A stretch of 45,660 nucleotides of DNA from the IMG/VR virus record IMGVR_UViG_3300033146_001082, positions 1-45,660 of that record, one strand, 5' to 3'. The position numbers were made by a program, and so were the translations under genes. The stretch is from a virus. This document shows, in pieces, positions 1-45,660 of this stretch. The notes below the pieces were generated by a model. That model did no database searches. It was given only the letters and a program-made list of their open reading frames with translations, and was not told the DNA's origin. Positions within the stretch are counted from its first letter, which is position 1; every line of letters begins with the position of its first letter.

Positions 1-3000
1 GTATCGGATAAGTTATTATGTGAATTAATCACACCTTTGATTGCATACCTATATTGTGATGCACTCATACCATCTACATCGACACCCTCTTCCTCGAGGG
101 CTTCGTCGAACAGAGCAGTCAGGTCTTGATATGTCTCTTCCTCAACTTGTTTCCCTTTATTGTATTTCTTGAACAACCGTTTAAAGAAACCATTCTCTTC
201 CTTGTCATCTAACATGTCTGCGATGGTGTCTAGCGTCAAGTTAGCATTTATCCAACTCATAATCCAGTCACCATCTTTAATGCTTGGTATGGTCCTCTTA
301 GCGGCCTTAAAGTCCTCCTCACGAGACTGTTTACGTTCTTTTACATAATCAGTGTCATACTCACCCTGTCTTTCTTCAATGTCCTTAACACGAGCTTCTA
401 ACTTACTAATAGTTTCATTAGATTGTTGTATAGCATCTAAGTTTTTAACCATTGTAGATTTTGGGTCAGTTCCCCATACAACTTCTGTGAATGTAGCATT
501 CTTGAAGTCATTGATTAACTGTTTAACATCTTCTTTAATAGACTCATGATATTTACGCTGTTTCATTTTAGATATCTTACTATCTAACTTACCTTTGCGT
601 TTAGCATACTTTTGTGCTGCATGATAATCCCTAAGGTTTTTAGCACCTAGTGGGCCTTTAGCAAATTCAGCAACCATATTGAGTGGCATAACAGCCTTGG
701 TTGTAAACTTCTTAATCAGTGCAGTGAGTATAGCTTCCTTCTTCTCTGGGTCTGTTTCTTTAGCATATCGTTCAATGGTGACCTTATTTTGTTTAGTTTT
801 CTTATCTGTGTCAGTGGTATCCTCTACGAGTTCCTCTGTAGACAAAGCATCATTAAACTTAACAACAGGGTCATTAACCATATTATTCAACATCTCTGCT
901 GCAAGGTGATTAACCTGAGACTTAGCATCTGGAGAATAATCAAGTAAACTGTCTAAAATGTTTTCCATGAATGTGGTAACGTCACCAGACATTGCACTTT
1001 CTGGGTTTGCTCTAAACATCTCAGCAAAAAATTCATCGGGGTTCTCTGTTACGTTTGATGCCACCTTCTTTTTAAAGTCTGTGTTATCAAAGAACTTAAG
1101 AACTTCCTCCTTATTGTTTAACTTATCTTCTGCCCAACTATTACGCAATTTTGCTCGTTGGTTTGCAGTCAGGATATTATTAAAGTACCAATGCCCTAAT
1201 TCATGTACCAATGCAATAGGATGTTCCTTGTCAGCCACAATAAGGTTTAAATGGTCGTAAAAACGTCCAGCCACCTGATTGTTCTCATCACTTAAAACCT
1301 CCACATTAACGGGCACGTTAGGAGCATTCTCGAACAATCTAACGACAGTATCGAGTTCATTACTCTGTTTCATATCCTTACTGAGCATTCTTGCTATCTC
1401 AGCAGTAGTCTTCTCACCTTTTAATGCACGTTTACGGATTTTCTCTGTAAGTCTATCCATATAATTTAATGAATTGATGAAATTACCCAATTCCTGACCT
1501 TGCATACCACTCATATCATGGGTAGCCATTTGGTCATATAACATAACAGCCTCAATAGGAGATACCTTATCAAAGTCTTTAAAGATTATAGACCTACCAC
1601 CTGATTGCTCAAGTACAAATGCAGCATCGGCTACATTTAGTGTAGTTTCCATATCTGTAAAAGCTGGCTGTTTAGAAATTTCTTCACGCATTTTCAACTG
1701 GCCAATCATATCCATTTCTGTAATGGCTTCAGTACTCAACGCATCAAAGAACTGGTTATTCTCATCGAATGTTACATAATTCTCAGTGTCATATGTATTT
1801 TCATCAAATCCAGAATTCATTGCACCAAACTCTTCACCAAAATTATCGGCAAATGATAGTTCAGCTTCAGCTTCAGAACCAATACTGTTTACGATATCAG
1901 CACTTTCAAATGCTGCCTCATCACCATATGCTCCTTCAGATTCTGCCATCTCATCTTCAGATATTGCTTTAGCAGAATTACCAACATATAGATAATCAAG
2001 TGATTCATCACTGGTTGTGTTGGTTCTCTGTTTACTACCACTGTTTAAATTAACACTAGTATTCTCAGATTCTGATAATGTTCTATCCTCATTTGCTGGA
2101 ATAGCTGATTCTTTAACAGATAATGTGATTACACCTTTTTCTGCTAACGACATCATAGCATAAGGATTGTGTATTGGCTCTTTTATTTCAGTTCTTTTAA
2201 ATATTGCCCGTTTATCCTCTGATACTGTTGCATTCTTTTTAATCAGTGATTTTGATTCCCTACTGATTTTATCAGAATTTGCCATATCTAGTGCAGGTAC
2301 AATAGTATCACCATTTGCTTGGTCAGACAGTATAGTAGCAAGTTCCATAGTCTCTGTTTCATTCAACTTGGCTTTCTTAGCTGCTTTATCGTTATAGGCT
2401 ATTTCCACATCAACTTTACCATTAACCATGGCATTAGTTAATCGTTTTGCTGCATACGACTTCATCTTCTTGATTGGTCCTGTATCTTTGTCATTAGTCA
2501 CAACAAATTTTGTAACATCAATGGCTTTTTTACCAGCATCAATAATAGTGTTCATCATATCCTTAGCAAAACCAGTAGCAGTTGATTTACCAGTACTTAA
2601 CTTTCTATCAGCATCACCAGCGTTCTGTGTTTTCCTATATTCACCAATAAATGTCTGTAACGACTTCTTAAACAGTTTTTGACGTGCACGTTCTTCACCT
2701 TTAAGTGTGTTACTTGTAAGTAGTCCAAGTTTTGCACCTTTACTAGCACCCATAGTATACATAAGAAGATTACGAAGTTTCATAATCTCATCATCAGATA
2801 AATATTCTATGATTCTAAAGTTCTTGGTGAACTCTGTACCAGTAAGAAATTCTTTTACCTGTTTTGGTGTCTTAAGTTTGCTTAACTCTTGTCCTTTTTT
2901 GGTTGCAGTCTTTCTGATTTTACGTCTACCAAAGTCGGTCAATAGTAGTTCAATATAATCTACTGGAGATGTTACCTTTTCCAATGCCTTTTGTTCAGCT

Positions 3001-6000
3001 TCAGTAAACTCATTGATTATATCATTTGTTCTATCAACTGTCATTTTACGCGATACTGTCTCTCCTTGTAGTCCTTCAAGCATAGAATCTAACCAGGCAT
3101 ACACATTGTCCTCTGCAATACGAGAATCGTATCCTACAAGAATCTTATATAGCTTGTTTAAAGTCTTAGCAAGGCTATGGAAGAATGTATCTAATACCCC
3201 TTGTCCCTTTTCAGAGATAACGAAGTATGTGCTGATTCTATCTGCCATATACTCATCGAAACTAGTAAGATATTCTGCAATATTCTCATCGTCACGCATC
3301 ATTTTAGACAAGTCTTTGAAAGATATATCGTTTCTGGCTAATGCGGTAACGGATACACCACTGCCTCTAGAAGTAAGAATGCTGTTCAATGTAGAGGTTT
3401 CTTTTGTGTTTTCTTTCCTCCATTTGTCATAATCTGCCATTATAGCATCACGTGTCTTCTTATCAGCATCAGCAAAATGGTCATTCACTATTACGTGGCC
3501 CATTTCGTGGCCTACTACACGCATAGCTTTAACGCCTTTTAGTGCACTATTCACAACAATAAGAGAATTGCCCTTAAATGTTACAGTATAACCATCAGTT
3601 TTTTCTGTTTCGAACCGATTAATTATTTCACGAGCAACTGTTTGGGTTTTTGTATCATAATTAGACAGTTTTTTGATGTTTATACCAAGATATTCAAGTT
3701 GTCCAATCAGGTCATCACTAACATATACACCAGTAGCATTCTTTTTACCAGCCAGTGTAGACAGGATTGTATTAGCAAATCCATTAAGTTTCTCAATTGC
3801 TGGTGTTCGTTTGAGTGCTTTTTTCTTGGAATATTCTTGTTCTTTCTTAAAAGAAAATTCTTTGAGTTCTGCCTCATTAACCTTTTTCTTGGCATCAATA
3901 ATCTCAGTCAGGTATTCTGTGCCCTTATTACCATTGGTTTTTTCATGTTCTTGACGAAGTTTCACCAATCTATCTAATTCTGTCTTGGCTTCATCAGAGG
4001 CCTTTTTAAGCTCGGTTCCCTTGTCAGTGGTACTCTGCTCCACATTACCCTTAATAGAGGGCTTAACGGGGCTATTAGGGCTCTTTTTAGACTTATTAGA
4101 ACTCTTTTCGTTCGATGTATCTGCTTTTTTGCCCTTTTTGATGGTTTTAGCGACTTGCAAAATGTAATCTTCAAGCTGCTGTTTTTCCTTCCCATTTAAC
4201 TTCTCTCTAGACAGGTTTTTGAGTAATTCTTTGACGTGTTCTGACTTCTGTTCTTCAGTTAAATCAGACACATCTTCACCATTGATTACACGAGAAATAA
4301 AATTATTTTCATTATTTTTCAAAAAAGACTTGACATTATTAGAAAGTTGTGGTACCCTTATATTATTATTATTATTATTATTAATATTATTATCAGTATT
4401 AGTATTATTATTATTATTACTATTACTGTTTTTCTTATTTTCTTTGGTTACTTTCTTTGTTTCTTTACCCTGGGGAGTGTGTTTTCGAACGATTGCTGAA
4501 GCAGTATTCCATTTTGTTGCATCCTCATCTTCGTTCAAAGAACTGGTTATGGTATCCAATTGTTTGGTGACTTTTTCGAAATCTTCTCTAGTAGAATTTT
4601 CATCCAACCCAAACTCTTTAAGTATTTCCATTTCCCTAGAAGTCTTGTCTGATTCTTTTTGGGTTAGAGCATCATTGTACACCACAGTTCTGTGTTTTCT
4701 CAAACTAGACAATTCTTTATCCATTTGCTTCTTCTGCTGAATCAGAGCAGCAGCTTCCATTGACCTTCCAGAATTCTTAGCATCTTGGATATTTGCTGTA
4801 GTGAGTGCAATCATGTCAGATAACTCATCTTTACGATTGTCTACCTCTTCAACTGTTTTTAAATCTGTAACATTTATTGGGTTATATCCAATATCAGTTG
4901 TCATAACGGTCGTGGTATTCCCTGTGGGGCTCGTAGGAGTGGTCTCAATGGTGTTTACAGTGACATCAGGCCCTACGGGTTCAGAAAATGGAGAAACGTT
5001 CATAACGGTGTTGTTAGGGGCATTCTCGGTATTGTCCATTTCAGCCAGTTGTATTTGTATTTGATTAATCCTGTCAGCATTTGCTTCTGGGTCTTTACTC
5101 AACTCCTCTAGTTCAATACGCAATTCTTCTGCACCACCGATAGCTTGACCAGGTGCTTGATTCAAACCAAGTTGTTCTTCAATGGCATCAATCTCAGCAA
5201 TAAGTGCGTTATATTCTTCCTCGTTGTCGACTGGGTCCAAATTATCCAATTCTGCTTGTTTAACTGCGAGTTCACCCTCGAGATTGGTTGTATCTTCTTC
5301 TGAGACCTCCGTAGAGGTGTCTTCCTGGACAGTTTCACCCTCAACAGGTGCTACGGGTTCATTTTGGGTTTCATCGACATTCTCGGTACCTTCTAGGTCC
5401 TCAGCTACTGCTTGCTCACGTTCACCAGTTTTCTCGTTCTTTTTAGCGACTCTATCTTGTTCTGCCTCATACTCGGCAATTTCTTTCATTGCCTGTTTAG
5501 CCAGTTCATTTGTCTCATCACTAAATTCGCCTTCTTCTAACGTATCAGCATCTCGTAGTTGTTGAGCAGATAATCTTTTAGCGGTCTCTTCAGATACACC
5601 TCTACGTTTGAGTTCTTTAACAGAAGACGAATATCTATTAACACGTCCACCAGTGGCAGGAATACCCATTAAAAGGAATGTAGGTAGTGTGGTAGCAAAT
5701 TCCTTAGCACCAGACTTTAAGGTATGTCCTAGTCGTTGTAAGAGTGTCTTATCACTAATGTCGGTAATGCGGTCTTCACCAAATTCCTTTTTTAGTGCTT
5801 CACGCATCTTGTCTGCTTCTGGACCACCTTTTTCCATAACTTCACGAGCATATTCTACAGAACCTTCTGTTGCAATCTTCTGAATACCCTCTTGGAATGC
5901 CTCAAATGATGCATCACCAATATATTGTTTTGCAGTATCCATAATCATCTTTTTGGTCATCTTACTACCAAGCATTTTACCTAGTGCTTTCTTACCGAAT

Positions 6001-7046
6001 ACACCAGCCAATCCTTCAGATAATACTTTCATCTGTAATAACTCTGCAAGTGAGTATGCCGTTGCACCAATATTGGCAGCAGTCTTATGTTCTCTAGGGT
6101 CTATACCAGACATCATCATACCACTCTGAATATCACCTTTACCCTGTAAATATGAACCAAATAAACCACCTGCTACATTACCGCCAGTCATGATTGTGTT
6201 TCCTATGTAATTCTCAATACTTGGGAGCACATTAATTAAACCACCATATAGTTTTTGAGCCAGGTTTTGTTCACCATTACTCAAATGGTCATTTATTTGT
6301 ATTCTGAGTTTATTAAATGCTGCCGCTGATTCTAAATCGTTTGCTGCAATAGCATTAGCAACCATTGTATCAATTTGACCGTTAATTTCACCAGCAGAGA
6401 ACGCTTTACCAGTGAATGATGAACCAGTATCCATAGCTCTATCCATAAGCATATATCGTCTAGCACCATCTATGATTTTACGTTCTTTATCGTAGTCTTC
6501 TACCTTGGTTATTCCAGCCATTTGTTCATCAGATAATTCTTTACGTGTTTTACCTGTTTTGAGTGCTTTTTCAGCACGCTTGATACGTTCCTTGTCATCA
6601 CCATATATTTCAGATAGTTTGTCTGGGTTTTCACGATAATATTCTACGTCATTACCAAGTTTATTACCCAATGTTTTGATTTCATCAAGCATTATAATGG
6701 CTTCCGTTTTCTTTTGCACATCGTGTGCAGCAATACCTTTTCCCCAGTTAACCAGACCCTCACGAAAGCCAGTGTATTGGTCAGTCAACATATCTCCTGC
6801 CATATCGATAGCCTCTTCACCAAAGTCTTTAGCTTGGTTCCCAATATTGGCTATAAGGTTGGATGGTGTCTCTCTAGCAACAGCATAATTGGTATTTTCA
6901 TTAGCTTCTATAGATACGTCATCAGAGGGTAAAAGGTATCCCCCTTCTTCATCTACTGACTCTGATAGCTGTTCTTCATCAGACGGTAAAAGGAGCCCAT
7001 TGGACTCCTCTACATCATCTGGTAGTAAAAAATTATCTTCCATCAT
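1..7046 (-). CDS. Giant virion-type (polyvalent-like) protein with two zincin metallopeptidase motifs, partial
   Basis: The frame stays open for about 2,348 codons from ATG 7046 to the window edge, so the C-terminus is missing. The upstream stop and ribosome site are fused (TAAGGA, then ATG). The N-terminus is acidic, with a repeated LLPSD-type motif in the first 50 residues. A Gly/Met-rich stretch, a long acidic coiled-coil region and a poly-Asn linker (about residues 872-895) follow. HEMGH at 1180-1184 with a downstream DEYMAD (Glu1265) and HELGH at 1948-1952 with EFFAE (Glu2005/2009) have the ligand layout of gluzincin metallopeptidases, so there may be two peptidase domains. It is the last visible gene of the virion operon, after likely internal proteins. 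I infer an injected or internal virion protein of the large polyvalent type, perhaps cleaving host or virion proteins. No RNA polymerase motif is visible. The metallopeptidase call is firm; the virion role is inference. Confidence 0.8.
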   Translation of the reverse strand, partial: MMEDNFLLPDDVEESNGLLLPSDEEQLSESVDEEGGYLLPSDDVSIEANENTNYAVARETPSNLIANIGNQAKDFGEEAIDMAGDMLTDQYTGFREGLVNWGKGIAAHDVQKKTEAIIMLDEIKTLGNKLGNDVEYYRENPDKLSEIYGDDKERIKRAEKALKTGKTRKELSDEQMAGITKVEDYDKERKIIDGARRYMLMDRAMDTGSSFTGKAFSAGEINGQIDTMVANAIAANDLESAAAFNKLRIQINDHLSNGEQNLAQKLYGGLINVLPSIENYIGNTIMTGGNVAGGLFGSYLQGKGDIQSGMMMSGIDPREHKTAANIGATAYSLAELLQMKVLSEGLAGVFGKKALGKMLGSKMTKKMIMDTAKQYIGDASFEAFQEGIQKIATEGSVEYAREVMEKGGPEADKMREALKKEFGEDRITDISDKTLLQRLGHTLKSGAKEFATTLPTFLLMGIPATGGRVNRYSSSVKELKRRGVSEETAKRLSAQQLRDADTLEEGEFSDETNELAKQAMKEIAEYEAEQDRVAKKNEKTGEREQAVAEDLEGTENVDETQNEPVAPVEGETVQEDTSTEVSEEDTTNLEGELAVKQAELDNLDPVDNEEEYNALIAEIDAIEEQLGLNQAPGQAIGGAEELRIELEELSKDPEANADRINQIQIQLAEMDNTENAPNNTVMNVSPFSEPVGPDVTVNTIETTPTSPTGNTTTVMTTDIGYNPINVTDLKTVEEVDNRKDELSDMIALTTANIQDAKNSGRSMEAAALIQQKKQMDKELSSLRKHRTVVYNDALTQKESDKTSREMEILKEFGLDENSTREDFEKVTKQLDTITSSLNEDEDATKWNTASAIVRKHTPQGKETKKVTKENKKNSNSNNNNNTNTDNNINNNNNNNIRVPQLSNNVKSFLKNNENNFISRVINGEDVSDLTEEQKSEHVKELLKNLSREKLNGKEKQQLEDYILQVAKTIKKGKKADTSNEKSSNKSKKSPNSPVKPSIKGNVEQSTTDKGTELKKASDEAKTELDRLVKLRQEHEKTNGNKGTEYLTEIIDAKKKVNEAELKEFSFKKEQEYSKKKALKRTPAIEKLNGFANTILSTLAGKKNATGVYVSDDLIGQLEYLGINIKKLSNYDTKTQTVAREIINRFETEKTDGYTVTFKGNSLIVVNSALKGVKAMRVVGHEMGHVIVNDHFADADKKTRDAIMADYDKWRKENTKETSTLNSILTSRGSGVSVTALARNDISFKDLSKMMRDDENIAEYLTSFDEYMADRISTYFVISEKGQGVLDTFFHSLAKTLNKLYKILVGYDSRIAEDNVYAWLDSMLEGLQGETVSRKMTVDRTNDIINEFTEAEQKALEKVTSPVDYIELLLTDFGRRKIRKTATKKGQELSKLKTPKQVKEFLTGTEFTKNFRIIEYLSDDEIMKLRNLLMYTMGASKGAKLGLLTSNTLKGEERARQKLFKKSLQTFIGEYRKTQNAGDADRKLSTGKSTATGFAKDMMNTIIDAGKKAIDVTKFVVTNDKDTGPIKKMKSYAAKRLTNAMVNGKVDVEIAYNDKAAKKAKLNETETMELATILSDQANGDTIVPALDMANSDKISRESKSLIKKNATVSEDKRAIFKRTEIKEPIHNPYAMMSLAEKGVITLSVKESAIPANEDRTLSESENTSVNLNSGSKQRTNTTSDESLDYLYVGNSAKAISEDEMAESEGAYGDEAAFESADIVNSIGSEAEAELSFADNFGEEFGAMNSGFDENTYDTENYVTFDENNQFFDALSTEAITEMDMIGQLKMREEISKQPAFTDMETTLNVADAAFVLEQSGGRSIIFKDFDKVSPIEAVMLYDQMATHDMSGMQGQELGNFINSLNYMDRLTEKIRKRALKGEKTTAEIARMLSKDMKQSNELDTVVRLFENAPNVPVNVEVLSDENNQVAGRFYDHLNLIVADKEHPIALVHELGHWYFNNILTANQRAKLRNSWAEDKLNNKEEVLKFFDNTDFKKKVASNVTENPDEFFAEMFRANPESAMSGDVTTFMENILDSLLDYSPDAKSQVNHLAAEMLNNMVNDPVVKFNDALSTEELVEDTTDTDKKTKQNKVTIERYAKETDPEKKEAILTALIKKFTTKAVMPLNMVAEFAKGPLGAKNLRDYHAAQKYAKRKGKLDSKISKMKQRKYHESIKEDVKQLINDFKNATFTEVVWGTDPKSTMVKNLDAIQQSNETISKLEARVKDIEERQGEYDTDYVKERKQSREEDFKAAKRTIPSIKDGDWIMSWINANLTLDTIADMLDDKEENGFFKRLFKKYNKGKQVEEETYQDLTALFDEALEEEGVDVDGMSASQYRYAIKGVINSHNNLSD
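4360..4432 (-). repeat. ATT/TTA trinucleotide tract encoding a poly-Asn linker
   Basis: A run of ATT/TTA triplets, broken by a few other codons, encodes an Asn-rich segment (with Ser, Thr, Asp and Ile) near residues 872-895 of the giant protein. It separates the acidic N-terminal half from the first metallopeptidase region. A slippage-prone microsatellite in frame with the gene changes linker length in whole residues. Confidence 0.85.
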
Positions 7047-17925: not shown

Positions 17926-20103
17926 TTAAACTGTTGCACCTGTAGCGTTAACCCAAGTACTATTAATATACCACGTAGGATATCCATAAGTGGTGTCTAC
18001 CCACATATATCCCTCATCAGGACTTGCGGGTCTACCAGTAGTTGGTCCAACTCCGATAGGTAGTGTGGGTGTTAATTCATCCACATATTTCTTCATTACG
18101 TAGTCGTTATCGACAGTAGGAGCAACATAACTACCACCTCTAATAACATGGTTTGCGACAATGCGTGCATTAGTACTATCAAACAATATTGTGGCATCCT
18201 GACCATCTTTACGCATAGTAATACCAGGAGCCCCAGAATTCCCATCAGTAATGGTAGCATTTGTTGAAGCGTCTCCAACAATAATATCATCAGTTGTTGT
18301 GTTTCCATTTGTAGTAACATCCTGTAGTGTTGGGTTCGAACCAGTTGGTGGGTCTACCCATTCTGTATCATTTCCTGTAGAATCAGTTGCTAACAACTGT
18401 CCAGGTGTACCAGTACCAACGTCAACACCACTCAAACCACCAGTCATTTTCTCTAGTGTAACCAAATCATGGTTATTGGTTATTTCAGATGCATCCATTT
18501 CTGGTGCAGAAACAACTCCCTGTTTTGTTATATGTAAAACAGAAACTTGATTAGATGGGTTCTCCTTATTAACTATATCAAACAGGTTGTTTGTGGATGA
18601 CTTAACAAAAAGACCATTTGTGTCATTAGTGGTCGATTTTCTAAGCGTTATATCATCACCAACTTTAACAGACGTATCACTCCTGATTATATCAGAGGAG
18701 TAAATAACACCGTCAGTATGTATAGCCTCATTTGGAAAGTTTGAATCGTCTGTAACTACTGGGTTCTCAACATGTCCACCAGATGGTGTGTATGGTGTAG
18801 TAGAATCAGGTGTAGAGTTACCACCAGCACCATAAGCTACCGATGTATTCCACTTGTCTGTATCATCAGCACAAAGCACCCAATAATAACTATCTTTAAC
18901 CAGGTGGTGTCCAGCATCTTTTCTAAACCAGTCGTTATTTATTTTTGTATATAGCCCATCATAACCAGTAGGTCCTAATGTTACTATATGCCCACTGTTG
19001 GCATCCTTAGTTATATCAATTTCTAATTCAGCAACACCAGTATATGTTGTTGTTCCTCTACCAATAAAAACGGGTTTGTCATTATTCGGTGTTACAGCAT
19101 CGGCTTCTAAAATCCAATGGCCATTACTAGCAACATAATCAACATATCGTTTTTGTGCGTAATCGTTATCGTTTACTGGTTCTCTATAGGTTTCTCCTAT
19201 GAGAGCACTACTCATTATAAAATGGTCAAATGTTCCATTATATGCAAGATAACCTGCACCATGAGCATCAGTATAGATATGACCAACATCACCTTGTGGG
19301 TTAGCCAGTAGTGTTGTAGTTACTTTATCATAACCATCGATTACGGCAATATCATTTGTTGTTGTATTACCATTATCTGTCACACCTTGTAAGTCAATAC
19401 CAGAAACACTAGATGGGTCTATCCATTCAGTATCAGTTGCTGTACTGTTTGTAGCAAGCAATTGTCCTGGGTTACCAAGTCCTACAGATGGTCCTGGTGG
19501 TCCCTGCGGTCCTTCTGGCCCTTCAGGTCCTTCTGGTCCCTGTGGTCCTAATGGGCCTTGTGGTCCTGCTGGTCCAACTGGACCTTGAATACCCTCTGGA
19601 CCTTGTGGACCTTGAGGTCCTGGGGGCCCGTGTAAGGTTTGGACATCTAGCCACTCAAAATCGGTACCAGCAGAATTCATCGCCAATACGAATGTTGGTG
19701 GGCCCAGAGGGATTAAATCTTGTTTGTCATTCAACTGATTCAATGTGATGAAATCAGTTAGTTCAACACCATCCAATCCTGACACTCTTGATGAAAACGC
19801 TATACTGCCATTAACAGTATCTAACATAACGCTTTCGAAGTTTCCAGCATTGTCTGTAAATTGTAATTCTCTTACAATGTAATCGTGGTATATTTCAATA
19901 TTATTAACATTATCAAATGTAATCATCGGTCTATAGACAATCAGCATGTCTCCATTCCTGTAAACGATATCACTTTCCTGCACACTAGTATTAGTGCCAT
20001 CAGTGATGGTTACAGACAATTGGTGGTCATCCAAATATTGTCTAAGGTCGTCAAATGATGCGTTGATATGAAATATCTTTGCTATTTCTACTATTCCACT
20101 CAT
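17926..20103 (-). CDS. Tail fibre with collagen-like rod, 725 aa
   Basis: ATG 20103 has AGGAGA five bases upstream. Residues 1-155 form an attachment domain. Residues 159-206 are 16 uninterrupted Gly-X-Y triplets (GPP, GPQ, GPE and so on), a collagen-like triple-helix rod. After the rod the motif PGQLLATxS...DTEW and LQxVTxNGNTTTxDI occurs twice (about residues 210-255 and 570-620). The central GYDGLYT...[13 protein letters not shown]...GAGGNSTP module is shared with the next fibre. The C-terminus ([16 protein letters not shown]...[13 protein letters not shown]) resembles end domains seen on many phage fibres. The protein is almost certainly a trimeric host-recognition fibre. How two fibres are arranged on the virion is unknown. 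Confidence 0.88.
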
Positions 20104-38560: not shown

Positions 38561-38716
38561 ATGGAGACTTATATTGAAAACAGGCATTATAAATTAGTAC
38601 CCGTTTCTGAGGTTCAGACTTACTTAGACAAGCACTGGGAGCTGTATGGTAGCCCAGTGTATAACGTAATGAAAAATGAGACATATCAAGCAATAGTTAA
38701 AGGAGAGTGGAACTAA
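38561..38716 (+). CDS. Small protein, DUF1737-like, 51 aa
   Basis: ATG 38561 is two bases after the preceding stop and the TAA at 38714-38716 overlaps the ATG of the PRPP synthetase gene by one base. The pattern HYKLVPVSEVQTYLDKHW...YGSPVYN...YQAIVKG resembles the DUF1737 layout (YKLV, a helix, a W/G turn and a final strand). The family is of unknown function. The match is from memory, so tentative. Confidence 0.62.
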   Translation: METYIENRHYKLVPVSEVQTYLDKHWELYGSPVYNVMKNETYQAIVKGEWN

Positions 38717-39546
38717 TGGATAATTATGAAAACACGTTCACGGTTACGACACAGCCGTACGATATTAAAATCGTGGATTCGCTTGGGAATGACGTGGAGT
38801 ACACTCACTTCACCTTTAGTGGTGGTGAAGAGCAAGTACGAATTGAGCCGTTTGATGTTAATGCGTGTACTATTCACGCTAAACAATTGACATCAGTTGG
38901 CATTGCCGTGCTTGAATTACTAACCAATGCACTCTATTACATGGACAAGAAAGTTACTATATTTATGCCTTACCTACCCTATGCACGGCAAGACCGTGTG
39001 TGTAGTCCTGGTGAGGCTAATGCTTTGAAATCATTCTTGTCTAAGTTTACCGTTGAGGAATTGGTAGCAGTGGATGTGCATAATCCAAGTGCTGCTAAAC
39101 AGGTATTAAACATCCCGTTCTCCAAAAATCTCATTTGGGAATTGGAACAGCAACATTTTGATGTTCTTGTTGCTCCTGATAAAGGGGCACGAGGACGGTG
39201 TGAGGTAATTGCCAAAGAACTTGGTATTTCATTTGTGATTATGGCTGAGAAAGTCCGCAATCCCGATACGGGAGTCATTGAGAAGACAGTAGTGAGTGAG
39301 GAAGACCTTGCTCTGCTAGATGAAAAACGTGTACTGATTTACGATGACATATGCGATGGGGGTCGCACGTTCATAGAACTTGCAAAAGTTCTTAAATTGG
39401 GCAACCCTTATGCTATCTCTCTAGCAGTTACACACGGTATATTCTCCAAAGGTATGGAGCCGATTATGGAGGATATCGACTACGTCTACACCACTGACAG
39501 CATTTGTCATTTCGAACATGATTTTTTAACAGTAGTACCAGTATAG
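38716..39546 (+). CDS. prs: Ribose-phosphate pyrophosphokinase (PRPP synthetase)
   Basis: This enzyme makes PRPP from ribose-5-phosphate and ATP. Motifs: PYLPYARQDR (residues 85-94), DVHN (120-123), the PRPP-binding loop RVLIYDDICDGGRT (205-218) and THGIFSKG (239-246). Length is 276 against about 315 for bacterial Prs, with some shortening at the N-terminal half; the catalytic flexible loop near residues 178-190 (EKVRNPDTG) lacks the usual KRR. ATG 38716 follows AGGAGAG and overlaps the DUF1737-like stop. The next gene, ten bases on, is NAMPT and uses PRPP, so both are best read as one pathway. A phage copy supplies PRPP when host pools run low or after NAD is destroyed. Confidence 0.93.
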   Translation: MDNYENTFTVTTQPYDIKIVDSLGNDVEYTHFTFSGGEEQVRIEPFDVNACTIHAKQLTSVGIAVLELLTNALYYMDKKVTIFMPYLPYARQDRVCSPGEANALKSFLSKFTVEELVAVDVHNPSAAKQVLNIPFSKNLIWELEQQHFDVLVAPDKGARGRCEVIAKELGISFVIMAEKVRNPDTGVIEKTVVSEEDLALLDEKRVLIYDDICDGGRTFIELAKVLKLGNPYAISLAVTHGIFSKGMEPIMEDIDYVYTTDSICHFEHDFLTVVPV

Positions 39547-39555
39547 GAGATTTTT

Positions 39556-41031
39556 ATGATTAAAGCTATCAACTGCATTGACTTTTACAAGGCAGACCAC
39601 AAATCTCAGTATCCAGTTGGGACTGAGTATGTTTACAGCAACTTTACACCGAGAACTGGCAAGTATGCTAGTACTGACTTAGGTGGTGTGATTAACTTTG
39701 GGTTACAGGGGTTCATTAAATGGTTCTTGGTAGAGACTTGGAACAATACGTTCTTTGCTCGTCCCATTGAGGAAGTACGTAAGGAATACCAACGTCGTCT
39801 AGACAATGCTCTAGGGCCTGGTGCAGTAAACACCGAGCATATCGAGGCGTTACACAACTTAGGTTACCTGCCAATTGAAATCAAGGCTTTGCCTGAGGGA
39901 GCACTAGTCCCCTACGGTGTACCTGTACTGACTATCGTGAACACTCGTCCTGAGTTCTTTTGGATTACAAACTATCTCGAGTCTGTTATGAGTGCTGAGT
40001 TATGGAAACCAATGACTTCTGCAACAACTGCCCGTGCATATCGTATTGTATTTGAGAAATATGCTGAAGAAACAGGATACGACAAGTCCTTTATTGATTG
40101 GCAAGGACACGACTTTAGTTTCAGAGGAATGGGTGGCGTATTTGACTCAATGGCAAGCGGTGCTGGTCACTTAACGTCTTTCACAGGAACTGATACTCTT
40201 AGTGCCATTGATTATCTCGAAGAGTACTACGGTGCAGACAGTGATAAAGAGATGGTCGGTGGTTCAGTACCTGCCACAGAACACTCAGTGATGTGTATGG
40301 GGGGTACAGGTGAGGATGAGTTTGAGACATTCAAACGTCTTATCACGGAGGTTTATCCAACGGGAATTGTCTCTATTGTCTCTGACACATGGGACTTATG
40401 GGAAGTTCTTACAGACTATCTTCCACGTCTCAAGGAGGAAATCATGGCACGAGACGGTCGGGTGGTCATTCGTCCTGATAGTGGTGACCCTGTGGATATC
40501 ATCTGTGGTGATGTAGACAGTGATTTGAGTGAGTCCTCACCTGCCTATAAAGGTGTCTACGAACTCCTATGGGATACATTTGGTGGCACTATTAATGAGA
40601 AGGGTTATAAAGTACTTGATGGTCACGTAGGGGCTATCTATGGCGACTCTATCACGCTTGAGCGTCAAGACGATATCTTGTCTATCCTTGAAGCCAAAGG
40701 GTTCAGTGCAAGTAATCTCGTTCTTGGTATTGGTTCTTTCACCTACCAATATGTCACTCGTGACACTCATGGGTTTGCTATGAAAGCGACCTATGGTGTT
40801 GTGAATGGTGAGGGACGTGAGATTTACAAAGACCCAGTGACTGACGACGGTATGAAGAAAAGTGCTAAGGGTTATCTACGTGTCGACAAAGTGGATGGTA
40901 CTTATGTACTTACAGACCAAGTAAGTAAGGATGAGGAACAGAAAGGAGAACTTGAGACAGTATTTAAAGATGGTGTCTTGGTTAAGGAATATACACTTAA
41001 CGAAATTCGTGAGCGTATTAAGAATCAATAA
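39556..41031 (+). CDS. nadV: Nicotinamide phosphoribosyltransferase (NAMPT)
   Basis: The enzyme condenses nicotinamide with PRPP to give NMN. Typical NAMPT blocks are present: NFGLQGFIKW (47-56), FFWITNYLESV (134-144), HDFSFRGMGG (185-194, with the Asp that selects nicotinamide), VPATEHS with the catalytic His243, RPDSGDP (306-312) and SFTYQYVTRDT (394-404). At 491 residues it is full length. The ribosome site AGGAGA overlaps the stop of prs. Known families of phage NAD salvage (NARP2) pair NAMPT with an NMN adenylyltransferase. None is in this window, so NMN must go to a host enzyme or to a gene outside the window. Confidence 0.94.
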   Translation: MIKAINCIDFYKADHKSQYPVGTEYVYSNFTPRTGKYASTDLGGVINFGLQGFIKWFLVETWNNTFFARPIEEVRKEYQRRLDNALGPGAVNTEHIEALHNLGYLPIEIKALPEGALVPYGVPVLTIVNTRPEFFWITNYLESVMSAELWKPMTSATTARAYRIVFEKYAEETGYDKSFIDWQGHDFSFRGMGGVFDSMASGAGHLTSFTGTDTLSAIDYLEEYYGADSDKEMVGGSVPATEHSVMCMGGTGEDEFETFKRLITEVYPTGIVSIVSDTWDLWEVLTDYLPRLKEEIMARDGRVVIRPDSGDPVDIICGDVDSDLSESSPAYKGVYELLWDTFGGTINEKGYKVLDGHVGAIYGDSITLERQDDILSILEAKGFSASNLVLGIGSFTYQYVTRDTHGFAMKATYGVVNGEGREIYKDPVTDDGMKKSAKGYLRVDKVDGTYVLTDQVSKDEEQKGELETVFKDGVLVKEYTLNEIRERIKNQ

Positions 41032-41060: not shown

Positions 41061-41098
41061 CTTGTAAGTTTATTGAATATTATGTTCGAGGAGGAACA

Positions 41099-41272
41099 AT
41101 GGAAGAAAAAATGATTAAGCGAGCAATCGCTACGCAAGAACTACGTCATGAACAACGTAGACTGGAAATTGAACTACTTGATGAGGAGTCAAATATCAAA
41201 ACGCTTTACAAAATGGACGAGGCTGAGGCCTATGCTTATGCTATTGACGTATTAGGAGGAAATGATGAGTAA
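41099..41272 (+). CDS. Small helical protein ahead of the amidoligase operon, 57 aa
   Basis: ATG 41099 has GGAGGAA five bases upstream. The protein is a charged helix (KRAIATQELRHEQRRLEIELLDEE), followed by an acidic tail. It overlaps the amidoligase start by eight bases, so translation is coupled. It could be an accessory subunit or simply the leader gene of the operon; no family recognised. Confidence 0.68.
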   Translation: MEEKMIKRAIATQELRHEQRRLEIELLDEESNIKTLYKMDEAEAYAYAIDVLGGNDE

Positions 41273-42014
41273 CTATTCCATTGAATATTATGAAAACACT
41301 AGAAAAATATACGGTAACGTATATAAAGATGGAACTCGTGTTAGTGAATTGGATGCTAACAAACGTGGAAAACTTCTTGGTATGGAAATGGAAGTCGCAT
41401 TGATGCGTAAACCTAGAGGGTATAACAAAAACGTTGATACACTTCTGCCATATTTACGAGACATTCATTCAGATACCACTGCTGGTGGTAGATATAGTCC
41501 TGAGATTGTTACACGCAAACTGACAAAAGAAGAGATGTATGAAGTGTTGCCACTTCTTGCAAAAATTGGTAGACATAACGTGAAGAACAACTATAGAGCT
41601 GGTGTTCATATTCATATTTCGCACGAGTGGTATAAAGATAGTAGCCATCTTGAGCGAATGGCGTACCTATTCTTTAAGCATCCGATTGTTGGTAGAAAAA
41701 TTGGTTATAGACCAGCATCTGGATTCAATAGTGATATTTCTGAATTGCATACTGTGCTTTCACGAAAAGGCCCGTTTAGAAATAATATTAAAGGGACGAA
41801 CAGTCGCTATTTATTTCGTTCAGTCACACCATACGGTACGTCAGAATTTCGTATGTTCAATACTACTGGCAGTGTTACACAACTTAAGCGATACATTGAC
41901 GATATCTTCTATCTGTTGGAATATACAGAAAAGGCATCGTTTAGTGATATCGATAAACTAAAAGGGTTCAAGCGTTCAATATTAAAAAGAAAACATATGA
42001 AGGGATTTAAATAA
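41265..42014 (+). CDS. Amidoligase (COOH-NH2 ligase), short form
   Basis: The 249 residues match the amidoligase_2 pattern (glutamine synthetase-like fold): LGMEMEVAL (38-46, metal-binding GxExE), SPEIVT (78-83), AGVHIHIS (112-119) and the Arg/Glu strand SEFRMFN (193-199). Such enzymes activate a carboxyl group with ATP and join it to an amine, forming amide or peptide bonds. I use the second of two ATGs (41265), placed better from AGGAGG. It is followed directly by a GGCT-like gene and a glutamine amidotransferase, a set known to travel with amidoligases in bacteria and phages. The substrate is unknown. The basic tail (KRSILKRKHMKGFK) could contact nucleic acid or a protein. Confidence 0.88.
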   Translation: MSNYSIEYYENTRKIYGNVYKDGTRVSELDANKRGKLLGMEMEVALMRKPRGYNKNVDTLLPYLRDIHSDTTAGGRYSPEIVTRKLTKEEMYEVLPLLAKIGRHNVKNNYRAGVHIHISHEWYKDSSHLERMAYLFFKHPIVGRKIGYRPASGFNSDISELHTVLSRKGPFRNNIKGTNSRYLFRSVTPYGTSEFRMFNTTGSVTQLKRYIDDIFYLLEYTEKASFSDIDKLKGFKRSILKRKHMKGFK

Positions 42015-42367
42015 TGTTAGTATTTACATATGGTAGTCTTATGAGAGGGCTACATAACCACGTTTTTATGGAAGAATCGAACGGGAAATTTGTATCGGAA
42101 CATACTATTGATGGGTTCGAATTGCACTCTGTTGGGGATTTTCCAGCGATAAAAAAGGGTGATGGGGAGATTAAGGGGGAATTGTATGATGTCAAAGATA
42201 CTGGCCATCTCGATTATTTAGAAGGTATCAGTAGCAACCTATATAAACGGGTGATGATTGGAGAAATCCTCGTATATGTCGGGGATAGAGTATTCGATTA
42301 TGGGACCAAGAAACTTTCCCATGGCGATTGGCGTAAACATATAGAAGGAGCAACACAATGTGCCTAG
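42014..42367 (+). CDS. Gamma-glutamylcyclotransferase-like (AIG2/GGCT) protein
   Basis: The 117-residue protein holds the GGCT signature YGSLMRGLHN (6-15), then FPAI (43-46), GELYDV (55-60) and DYLEG (67-71), where Glu70 is the expected general acid/base. GGCT-fold enzymes release 5-oxoproline from gamma-glutamyl amines or peptides. Here it is sandwiched between amidoligase and glutamine amidotransferase and overlaps both (one base with the former, ten with the latter). It may remove gamma-glutamyl groups added by the ligase or regenerate amine. Known operons of this type predict a role in peptide-like modification. Confidence 0.9.
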   Translation: MLVFTYGSLMRGLHNHVFMEESNGKFVSEHTIDGFELHSVGDFPAIKKGDGEIKGELYDVKDTGHLDYLEGISSNLYKRVMIGEILVYVGDRVFDYGTKKLSHGDWRKHIEGATQCA

Positions 42368-43185
42368 CAATCTGTACACCAGCATTAAATGCTTATGATG
42401 ACAATGTTGACGAATTCGATTACGATTGGATTCGCAACGCATGGCCAACCAATCCAGACGGTGCAGGATTTTCCTATGCGTCTGTTGATGGTAAAGTACA
42501 CATCAAAAAAGGGTACACCGATTTAGAAGAGTTTATCGCCAATCTTGATTGGTATAGATATGCTAACCCTATGTGTAATTTTCTTATACATCTTCGTTGG
42601 GCTAGTGCTGGTGAGATTTCAGAAGAAAACACTCACCCGTTCTATATTGGTGAAACAAACACAGCGTTCATTCACAACGGTACCATCTATCCGATGAAGC
42701 CAAAAGGTGATGATAAACGTAGTGATACACAAATTTTTGCAGAATTTTTAACAGAATTACCAGAGGAGTGGTATAAGGATGCTGGAATTACTGAACTTGT
42801 TGAAGACTTCCTTGGGAGTAGTAAGATAGCACTGATTGATTCATATGGAGATATCTACATTTTTAATGAACATCTCGGTGAGTATGTAGGAGAAACTTGG
42901 ATGTCAAATGATTATTACACTGGAGACTATATTCGTAATGACAAAGGTGTAAAAATTAAGAAACCTGTAGAGGTTGAGCCAGAGGTTGAGCCAGAGGTTG
43001 AAATGGAGGAAACGGTAACACAACCATTACAGTTCCCAGAACCATTAGAGCACTATGGTGAAGGAGAGTGTGCATATTGTGGATGCATGCTTGAGACCCC
43101 AGACGAAAAACATGAAGGTATTTGTATAAATTGTGCCATTGATATTCAATATGGATATGGCCTTGGCGGATTAGGAGATTATTAA
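42358..43185 (+). CDS. Class II glutamine amidotransferase with C-terminal zinc ribbon
   Basis: Cys2 (MCLAI) is the N-terminal nucleophile exposed when Met is removed. HLRWASAG (78-85), HPF (93-95), HNGTI (106-110) and SDTQIF (122-127) complete the class II site that hydrolyses glutamine to glutamate and ammonia. After residue 200 comes an EVEP tandem repeat, then CAYCGC (238-243) and CINC (256-259), a zinc ribbon. No synthetase domain is fused, so ammonia must pass to a partner, most likely the adjacent amidoligase. The start overlaps the GGCT-like gene by ten bases. The second copy of this pair follows downstream. Confidence 0.92.
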   Translation: MCLAICTPALNAYDDNVDEFDYDWIRNAWPTNPDGAGFSYASVDGKVHIKKGYTDLEEFIANLDWYRYANPMCNFLIHLRWASAGEISEENTHPFYIGETNTAFIHNGTIYPMKPKGDDKRSDTQIFAEFLTELPEEWYKDAGITELVEDFLGSSKIALIDSYGDIYIFNEHLGEYVGETWMSNDYYTGDYIRNDKGVKIKKPVEVEPEVEPEVEMEETVTQPLQFPEPLEHYGEGECAYCGCMLETPDEKHEGICINCAIDIQYGYGLGGLGDY

Positions 43186-43186
43186 T

Positions 43187-44869
43187 ATGTATTATGCAGT
43201 ATTAAATGACAGTGATTTTGTACCAATGGTTGACGGTGAAGAAGTTCATCGTTCATTAGAATTGGTTGCAGGAAATATTATACCACTTGAACGGATTAAT
43301 AGTCGATGGTTTAAGAAGGCATCTAATGGCGTAAGAGTCCATAAGAATTGGATAAGCAAAGTGGTTGAATTGGTAGATGATGAATACTACATTCTTGATA
43401 GTGTACTTTATTCTCATAGAACTGAACGATGTCTGATATCCGAAGATGTGTCGTGTAGAAGACATGCACTAGATGGTGATATACGTCTAACGACACACAG
43501 TCTAGAAGCCATTGAAAGATTTGCTAGAAATTCTCGTTTAAACAGTCGTGCAACTAAGTGTCAATGTGGAAAATATCACCCACGGACCGAGTATCGGTTC
43601 GCGTGTTCATGTGGCAATATTCCACATAGAAAAATATCTGAAATATTCGATTTTATAGATGCCAATGGCGACTATTCGTTTGCGGGAAGTGGGCAGAGAA
43701 TATTACGGTTCAGCGAAGAAACTTATATCATTGATAATGAGCTAATAGAAACCAATACTGTATCTTTGTGTTCTGAATGTAATGTGGCATTTTTCAATGT
43801 GAGCAGAGAAGATTTAGAGTATGAAGATGAGTATGGTGATTATGTTGTTGATAGTAGCGTAATGGCTCGTGTATTGTCAAACCCAGATATTGTATACCAT
43901 GATGACGATTTTGATGTACCGTTTAATCGTTGTAAGATACACTCTAGACCATCAAGTGCCCCATGCTCTGTGTGTGGTACATCGGTCAATATTGAAGATG
44001 CCATGAGTGATAATGGTTCGTATATGTGTCATTCATGTTACCGTGATGTACAACGATTCAAGATACGTAATTATTCATACGTTCCAGACCCACTTATTTT
44101 CTACAAAGCAACAACAGAATCAGATATTCAAGACAGTGACTTGGTATTTCGTGGTGTTGAGATGGAAGTTGAAGTACATAATGAAAATCGTGGTAAACAA
44201 ACTACCGCTAAAATGTTTGCTCGTGCAGTCAATGAGATACTTCCGAATTTTATCTATATGAAATCGGATGCATCTATTGATGGTGGTTTTGAGATTGTAA
44301 CCCATCCATTTACCGATGCGTGGCGATTAGAGAACGCTGATAAATTACAGCAGATGTTTGATTTAATGGAGGAATACGATTTACGTGCTGGTAATGAGCA
44401 TGGTGTAATCAGTTGTGGTATGCACGTTCATGTGTCTACTGGACCTATTGACCCATCAATACTATTTAAAGTGTCGAGCTTTATCTATGGTAACAGAAGT
44501 GAAGTTCTGTTGATGGCAGACAGATTCAATCGTCGTCGTGTTAGTCGTTATTGTTACTTCCCAGACAATCTTACTGATACAGATTTCCGTGAGATGGGTA
44601 GTGCTAAACGGAATAATGGTAAGATTGAACACCATGCAGCATTGCAGTATACTCCTCGAACGTTGGAGTTTCGTATCTTTGATGGTACTGCAACAATGCA
44701 TCGATTCACAAAGAATATGGAATTCATTGCTGCTGTGTTTGAGTATGCCAATTCTGTGGATACTATGACATTTGCTGGGTTCCTTGAATTCATTTCAATG
44801 AGTTCATATGATGAGCTCATATCAGATGTTTCATATAAACAACGTGATTTACGTAAGAAAGGTTATTAA
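43187..44869 (+). CDS. Amidoligase with long zinc-ribbon N-terminus, 560 aa
   Basis: The C-terminal half is an amidoligase: RGVEMEVEV (322-330), GGFEIVTHP (366-374), CGMHVHVS (410-417) and TLEFRIFDGT (492-501). The N-terminal 300 residues carry Cys pairs CQC (125-127), CSC (140-142), CSEC (195-198), CSVC (260-263) and CHSC (281-284), enough for two or more zinc ribbons, possibly docking to a partner or nucleic acid. It starts one base after the stop of the amidotransferase. The two amidoligases share motifs but differ in length, so they are paralogues with probably different substrates. Such a zinc-rich fusion is unusual. Confidence 0.88.
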   Translation: MYYAVLNDSDFVPMVDGEEVHRSLELVAGNIIPLERINSRWFKKASNGVRVHKNWISKVVELVDDEYYILDSVLYSHRTERCLISEDVSCRRHALDGDIRLTTHSLEAIERFARNSRLNSRATKCQCGKYHPRTEYRFACSCGNIPHRKISEIFDFIDANGDYSFAGSGQRILRFSEETYIIDNELIETNTVSLCSECNVAFFNVSREDLEYEDEYGDYVVDSSVMARVLSNPDIVYHDDDFDVPFNRCKIHSRPSSAPCSVCGTSVNIEDAMSDNGSYMCHSCYRDVQRFKIRNYSYVPDPLIFYKATTESDIQDSDLVFRGVEMEVEVHNENRGKQTTAKMFARAVNEILPNFIYMKSDASIDGGFEIVTHPFTDAWRLENADKLQQMFDLMEEYDLRAGNEHGVISCGMHVHVSTGPIDPSILFKVSSFIYGNRSEVLLMADRFNRRRVSRYCYFPDNLTDTDFREMGSAKRNNGKIEHHAALQYTPRTLEFRIFDGTATMHRFTKNMEFIAAVFEYANSVDTMTFAGFLEFISMSSYDELISDVSYKQRDLRKKGY

Positions 44870-44870
44870 T

Positions 44871-45660
44871 ATGTGTATTATTGCAGTAAATAAGATGGAC
44901 AAAGGTATCATCTCAGAGGAACGATTTAACCAGATGTGGCTTAGAAACAGTCATGGTTTTGGTATGATGTGGAAGCAGGGTGATGTGGTCAATGTATACA
45001 AGACATTGGCTAAAGACACGGCCTATGACACATACAAGCGTGTGTTCGATAACCGTGAGGGTGATATTGTTCTCCACTTCCGCATCGCTACTCAGGGACA
45101 TGGTATCGAAAATGTCCATCCGTTTAAAGTTAAAGACGACCTACATATGTGTCATAACGGCATCATTACTCAGTGGTCGAAGTCTGAACATAAGAAGACT
45201 GGTAAATCGGATACACGTCTATTCATTGAGAATGTTGTTGCTAAAGTAGACAATGTTAAGTATGAACTACGTAAACCATGGTTGCAGACAATGTTGGCGG
45301 ATTATGTATCTTCTGATAAACTGGCTTTCCTTGATAATAGTGGTATTGCAATCATAATCAACGAAGCTCGTGGTGTTTGGGATGATGGTAACTGGTATTC
45401 AAATACATCATACAAACCATATGTTGCGACAACAAGAACTACATATAACTATGGATACACTTGTGAACTGTGTAATAAGAAAATGAAATGGGGTGAATAT
45501 ATCCTTATTACACACAAATCAAAAAGTGCAAAAATCTGTTTAGATTGTATCCCGTTCTATAGCCTTAAGGAGATTGCCAATGAAGTAGATGTGCCTGAAA
45601 AGGTATGGGAGATTGGTAATGTGTATAAAGAGTATGATAAAATAGAATATAAGAAAGAGG
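44871..45660 (+). CDS. Second class II glutamine amidotransferase with zinc ribbon, partial
   Basis: The frame runs from ATG 44871 off the right edge (263 codons seen). MCIIAV gives the Cys2 nucleophile, and HFRIATQGH (about 64-72), VHPF (77-80), HNGII (91-95) and KSDTRLF (110-116) form the class II site. Near residues 203-230 CELC and CLDC make a zinc ribbon like that of the first copy. It starts one base after the second amidoligase. The pair amidoligase plus amidotransferase thus occurs twice in succession. The C-terminus is missing. Confidence 0.9.
   Translation, partial: MCIIAVNKMDKGIISEERFNQMWLRNSHGFGMMWKQGDVVNVYKTLAKDTAYDTYKRVFDNREGDIVLHFRIATQGHGIENVHPFKVKDDLHMCHNGIITQWSKSEHKKTGKSDTRLFIENVVAKVDNVKYELRKPWLQTMLADYVSSDKLAFLDNSGIAIIINEARGVWDDGNWYSNTSYKPYVATTRTTYNYGYTCELCNKKMKWGEYILITHKSKSAKICLDCIPFYSLKEIANEVDVPEKVWEIGNVYKEYDKIEYKKE

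Follow-up and report, generated by a model that had tools for sequence, protein, structure and literature searches.

Two predicted glutamine-dependent amidation units and a gamma-glutamyl cyclotransferase in the early region of a tailed-phage contig

The stretch of DNA analysed here (the window) is the whole IMG/VR entry IMGVR_UViG_3300033146_001082, with a length of 45,660 bases and a G + C content of 39%. The early region of this tailed phage lies on the plus strand and extends to the right end of the contig, and its last five genes form a consecutive, coupled run at 41262-45660 (+) in the order amidoligase 1 (AL1), gamma-glutamyl cyclotransferase (GGCT), glutamine amidotransferase 1 (GAT1), AL2 and GAT2. 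Each of the five frames matches a family, which excludes chance. The operon probably encodes two glutamine-dependent amidation units together with a gamma-glutamyl trimming enzyme, a reading of the enzymology, not of the target, that draws on protein families, alignments and structure models. The features of the operon are as follows:

41262-42014, plus strand: AL1, a short amidoligase (250 amino acids, aa) of the predicted glutamine synthetase (GS) fold, without zinc ribbons (Pfam, alignment A4, structure model)
42014-42367, plus strand: GGCT, an AIG2-like gamma-glutamyl cyclotransferase of 117 aa (PF06094, structure match, alignment)
42358-43185, plus strand: GAT1, a class II (N-terminal nucleophile, Ntn) glutamine amidotransferase with Cys2 as nucleophile (GATase_6 match, catalytic residues)
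43069-43134, plus strand: C-terminal zinc-ribbon-like motif of GAT1, C238/C241 ... C256/C259 (positions of the Cys pairs)
43187-44869, plus strand: AL2, a 560-aa amidoligase with an N-terminal zinc-ribbon-like region and a C-terminal domain of the predicted GS fold (Pfam, alignment, model)
43769-44038, plus strand: zinc-ribbon-like part of AL2, C195/C198, C249, C260/C263, C281/C284 (Cys columns at least 90% conserved in alignment A5)
44126-44866, plus strand: predicted GS-fold ligase domain of AL2, residues 314-560 (structure model)
44871-45660, plus strand: GAT2, a class II glutamine amidotransferase with Cys2, starting with ATG at 44871 and truncated by the contig end (relatives, residues; 263 codons, no stop)
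45462-45548, plus strand: zinc-ribbon-like motif of GAT2, C198/C201 ... C223/C226 (positions of the Cys pairs)
41099-41272, plus strand: open reading frame (ORF) of 57 aa heading the run (overlaps AL1)

Counted from the 57-aa ORF, the junctions are overlaps of 11, 1 and 10 nucleotides (nt) followed by two gaps of 1 nt each, and Shine-Dalgarno-like motifs lie upstream of the operon genes. These boundaries agree with the preliminary description of the locus, in which the five genes were consecutive and overlapping or abutting; the start given there, 41099, belongs to the 57-aa ORF, while the five-gene run itself begins at 41262. The frame of this ORF (41093-41269) had no match in Pfam and none in PHROG. 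As the contig ends at codon 263 of GAT2, the operon may continue beyond its right end.

Both amidoligases passed the Pfam cut-off of 22 bits for Amidoligase_2 (PF12224), AL1 with 23.2 bits (7e-5) and AL2 with 32.8 bits (9e-8), and AL1 scored 39.9 bits against profile A2, which was built without it. Residues G40-E42-E44, D71, E81, G114-H116-H118, R150, E195 and R197 of AL1 are conserved in alignment A4, and the motifs GxExE, D..S, GxHxH, R and ExR are invariant or nearly so in both A4 (28 sequences, including AL1) and A5 (33 sequences, including AL2). The structure model of AL1, with a predicted local distance difference test score (pLDDT) of 70, matched YbdK in Foldseek (E 9e-5) and glutamine synthetase (Z 9.6 over 175 residues). 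Residues 1-250 of AL2 were modelled poorly; its ligase domain, with pLDDT mostly above 90, matched glutamine synthetases (Z 12.2, 214 residues), YbdK (Z 11.5) and glutamate-cysteine ligase (Z 11.5), and all of the structural matches listed for the two models are GS-type enzymes. By the alignments and models, AL1 and AL2 share the glutamine synthetase fold with conserved active-site residues, which together with the Pfam scores places both ligases inside the amidoligase family. Since AL2 has a zinc-ribbon-like region and AL1 has none, they are different kinds of amidoligase and not simple copies.

GAT1 exceeded the cut-off of 27 bits for Pfam GATase_6 (28.8 bits, 1.4e-6) and also that for GATase_4. 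GAT2 scored below both cut-offs (GATase_4 17.4 bits vs. 23, GATase_6 16.6 vs. 27); it is assigned to the class II GATs because it matches phage glutamine amidotransferases at 2e-17 and keeps all catalytic residues. In the alignment, Cys2, Arg80, Asn107, Gly108 and Asp123 are invariant in 14 of 14 GATs, including GAT1 and GAT2, and profile A3, which contains both proteins, matched GlmS structures at 5e-14. Both GATs carry a four-cysteine motif, and at least two CxxC motifs occur in the C-terminal tails of 68 of the 93 GAT matches. The GGCT protein passed the PF06094 cut-off of 22.8 bits with 61 bits (2e-16) and matched the YtfP structure 1xhs (E 1e-8). It contains YGSL (6-9) and LDYLEG with the acidic Glu70, and YGSL and Glu70 are kept in all five sequences when four phage GGCTs are aligned with it. 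The families and the intact catalytic motifs claimed earlier for all five proteins are therefore upheld, by Pfam scores above cut-off for AL1, AL2, GGCT and GAT1, by relatives and residues for GAT2, and by the alignments of the ALs, the GATs and GGCT. The profile searches suggested at that stage returned amidoligase, GGCT and GATase_6 matches, and GATase_7 matched none of the window proteins.

The distribution of such genes was analysed by scanning IMG/VR with alignment A2 of seven AL2-type sequences, which gave at least 532 AL2 relatives. The 80 loci fetched were the best-scoring of these, picked by the amidoligase alone and with near-duplicates included, so the shares given here are not unbiased for all phages. 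Single-protein scans of viral contigs with AL2, AL1 and GAT1 gave no matches, the peptide patterns being too specific. A GAT gene lies directly behind the AL gene in 76 of the 80 loci; three others are truncated at a contig end, and in one the GAT follows further on. In 87% of cases, at most 60 nt separate the AL stop from the GAT start. A GAT is encoded in each of the 38 non-redundant contigs, and exactly one in 37 of them, whereas a second strong AL is present in five (G002, G003, G011, G014, G021), GGCT in two, and the combination of two AL-GAT pairs with GGCT in none. The second AL of another of these contigs (G028) is a canonical Amidoligase_2. Named phages with an AL-GAT pair include Marvin, MEP401/402 and the podovirus ctgrD200. 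A tandem AL-AL-GAT order, with two ligases before a single GAT, is found in L015, L016, L039 and L059. An AL followed by a GAT is thus common in phages, and the double pair with GGCT is uncommon. Since a RimK-like ATP-grasp gene lies near AL-GAT in three of the 38 zinc-ribbon contigs (L047, L057, L014), the simple pair and the larger gene cassettes described below appear to grade into each other. The ALs of L047 and L057 have GFENE in place of GxExE, and their GATs are the closest relatives of GAT1.

Genes for GGCT accompany amidoligases elsewhere as well. Contig G028 carries an AL-GGCT pair as well as a separate AL-GAT pair, AL adjoins GGCT in L095, and in L044 GGCT lies near AL-GAT-AL. Moreover, phage ctfjg026 (MW202828.1, L007:4050-7050) encodes, after an AL-like protein, a natural GAT-GGCT fusion that ends in a four-cysteine motif. 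Together with the published elements in which AL stands beside GGCT (PMC3485107, PMC11253131, PMC11318856), these neighbours and the fusion tie GGCT to the chemistry of the amidoligases.

With regard to mechanism, the conserved residues suggest that the N-terminal Cys of GAT1 and GAT2 would hydrolyse glutamine and free ammonia. The ALs would activate a carboxyl group with ATP and metal and join the ammonia to it, giving a carboxamide, as may be expected from the modelled fold and the aligned residues, and GGCT would split off gamma-glutamyl groups as 5-oxoproline. The generic chemistry of the preliminary description, an ATP-dependent ligase fed with ammonia from a glutaminase, is in this way supported by alignment and model. 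AL2 would most likely work with GAT2, and AL1 with both GAT1 and GGCT; a stable assembly of two proteins would fit the presence of zinc-ribbon-like motifs in each partner.

Several points weigh against this reading. The pairing of ALs and GATs, although the likeliest, rests on gene order, and tandem AL-AL-GAT phages such as L015 and L016 indicate that one GAT may serve two ALs. GAT2 is truncated and below the Pfam cut-offs, and the confidence of the AL1 model is moderate. A census of 106 neighbour representatives gave replication, packaging and integration genes only and no hint of the target. The literature search found no assayed reaction for any phage AL-GAT member, and we know of none.

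The kind of gene set found here is already known and has been described since 2009, and the double arrangement with GGCT is a variant of it. Amidoligase sets were described by Iyer et al. 2009, as reported in later papers (PMC10580990, PMC11318856, PMC11253131), and the phage sets in the literature comprise amidoligase, GAT, GGCT, ATP-grasp and COOH-NH2 ligase. The podoviral peptidoglycan modification cassette of phiEco32, LUZ24/PaP3/tf/UFV-P2, RIO-1 and PSA-HP1 (PMC5498523, PMC3890496, PMC11945000; Iyer 2009 and Hardies et al. 2013 as cited in PMC5498523) likewise places an amidoligase, a class II GAT and a GGCT among the early genes of tailed phages. Unlike the cassette, the present operon has zinc ribbons in AL2 and two ALs each closely trailed by a GAT, with GGCT between AL1 and GAT1. 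StenR_269 has two ligases and two GATs as here, in a comparable but larger set. No ATP-grasp and no PF14395 ligase match was obtained in the window up to the contig end; the PF14395 model also misses the GS-like ligases of StenR_269.

In mycobacteriophage Marvin (gp105-gp106) and the OM43 phages MEP401 and MEP402, a zinc-ribbon AL is followed at once by a GAT, with identities of 25-27% to AL2 and 30-34% to GAT1; unlike the operon described here, they have a single pair, and no GGCT is annotated or matched alongside. In Bacillota elements (Tn6164 Orf22-23, Terrisporobacter TPDSL_ph1, C. clostridioforme phi13 and L095, the published ones compared by description), an amidoligase adjoins AIG2/GGCT in the manner of AL1-GGCT. 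However, L095 encodes a canonical Amidoligase_2 ligase (5.7e-53), and AL1 is divergent, shorter and has a GAT behind it. Phage ctfjg026 (MW202828) resembles the operon in that a GAT, a GGCT and a C-terminal motif of Cys pairs follow an AL-like protein. It differs in that these are fused in one protein, that only one set is present and that CGGHITIG replaces the family motif CGxHxH in the AL-like protein. The folds of the MurT-GatD pair are unrelated, a Mur ligase with a class I GAT as opposed to a GS-fold ligase with a class II GAT. Its two-protein, glutamine-dependent logic, by which a carboxyl group of peptidoglycan glutamate becomes a carboxamide, is alike (PMC3267633, PMC5871853). A literature text search for amidoligase and zinc ribbon gave no paper on this system, as judged by title.

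The preliminary description had proposed that the order of the genes reflects duplication and specialisation. In one form of this idea, a single AL-GAT pair was duplicated in tandem within the phage lineage and the copies then specialised. The same gene order in both pairs is consistent with this, and the AL tree recovers true duplicates in other phages, namely in L044 and in the L039/L059 lineage. Sisterhood was also not rejected by approximately unbiased (AU) tests (p-AU 0.166 and 0.199), in trees with long branches and without supported placement. On the other hand, AL1 and AL2 are just 24% identical over 213 residues and GAT1 and GAT2 just 26% over 197, and each GAT has a closer relative in another phage (GAT1 is 38% identical to the GAT of L057, GAT2 35% to that of L015). 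The domain make-up of AL1 and AL2 differs as well, and GGCT adjoins AL1 only. The proposal is not borne out by these results, and a duplication of this kind seems improbable. Because AL1 lacks zinc ribbons and the AL-GGCT and AL-GAT pairs each occur alone elsewhere, the joining of an AL-GGCT-type with an AL-GAT-type module could account for the set equally well; a duplication in the distant past may have occurred.

As genes are cut at both contig ends, GAT2 on the right (45660) and a 2348-aa minus-strand ORF (window 1-7046) on the left, the record is a fragment, and no terminal repeat of 12-399 bases was detected at its ends. On the minus strand, the first 33 kb or so hold the genes for packaging (terminase), portal, head and tail. 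One minus-strand protein (17926-20103) matches phage tail-fibre and collagen-like minor tail families at residues of about 150-275. Among the early genes, a 51-aa frame at 38561-38713 (+) has a sub-threshold match to DUF1737 (1.6e-4). No nucleotide-level match to the operon was found among 50,697 phage records.

Directly upstream of the operon, at 38707-41031 (+), lie a Prs-like and a Nampt-like gene. They are very likely an Adps-Namat pair (NARP1), which reconstitutes nicotinamide adenine dinucleotide (NAD+) against NAD-depleting defences. The Nampt-like protein scored 577 bits against the phage Namat structures 9W5X/9W5W vs. about 230 bits for human Nampt, and its GSFTYQYVTRD aligns with Namat G390, S391, F392, Y396, T398, R399 and D400. 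A general association of AL-GAT with NAD+ genes was rejected, with a homologue within 5 kb in 0 of the 80 loci.

Concerning the target, the preliminary description listed a host wall precursor, a nucleotide, a defence protein and a virion protein, all of them speculative. Our leading though tentative guess is a cytoplasmic envelope precursor, e.g., the peptidoglycan peptide. In such a case, a reduced podoviral cassette would alter the side chains of the precursor peptide, so that other phages, or the lytic enzymes of phage and host, act less well, with wall modification and superinfection exclusion as the outcome. Zinc ribbons are unusual in wall-precursor enzymes, which counts against it. A target of the peptidoglycan-precursor type was proposed for phage modules by Iyer et al. 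2009, according to later papers, and the enzyme classes are shared with the cassette of RIO-1, phiEco32, LUZ24 and PSA-HP1 (PMC5498523, PMC3890496, PMC11945000). StenR_269 moreover has GGCT, two GATs, two GS-like ligases, ATP-grasp and AL, and the RimK-like ATP-grasp genes near the pair in three of 38 zinc-ribbon AL-GAT contigs point in the same direction. However, the wall role of the cassette is itself a prediction in the literature (PMC5498523), the window and most AL-GAT contigs are without ATP-grasp and PF14395 ligase matches at the sensitivity used, and GGCT occurs in just two of the 38 contigs.

Amidation of a protein is a possible but more doubtful alternative. The zinc ribbons of AL2 and of both GATs would recognise a protein of the host or the phage, and amidation of its Asp/Glu or C-terminal carboxylates would change host takeover or evade defence. 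The AL2 group shows almost no variation in its zinc-ribbon-like Cys pairs, such pairs also occur in 68 of 93 GAT tails, and the Foldseek list for AL2 includes PafA, a protein ligase of the GS fold, and the depupylase Dop; yet these are two among many GS-fold matches with no specific feature in common, no protein target is known, and the ribbons may merely hold the complex together. The synthesis of a nucleotide or small metabolite, in which a nucleotide, sugar or peptide metabolite is amidated and GGCT takes off a gamma-glutamyl protecting group in the way of BtrG in butirosin synthesis, appears unlikely. The ligase and GGCT logic of BtrG/BtrJ and the NAD+-reconstitution pair directly upstream speak for it, but all 80 AL-GAT loci are free of NAD-pathway genes within 5 kb, and the 106 neighbour representatives include no conspicuous gene for DNA modification or biosynthesis. 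It is also conceivable, if rather unlikely, that the zinc-ribbon AL-GAT is a widespread self-contained phage system apart from the wall cassette, its ribbons selecting a protein or nucleic acid in which carboxylates would be amidated by nitrogen from glutamine; the present operon would then hold two such units and a GGCT.

AL-GAT pairs are frequent in phage genomes, with at least 532 candidate stretches encoding AL2 relatives. The two-gene form, which mostly occurs without the other cassette genes, offers a small testable unit for the modified target and for the wall proposal of 2009.

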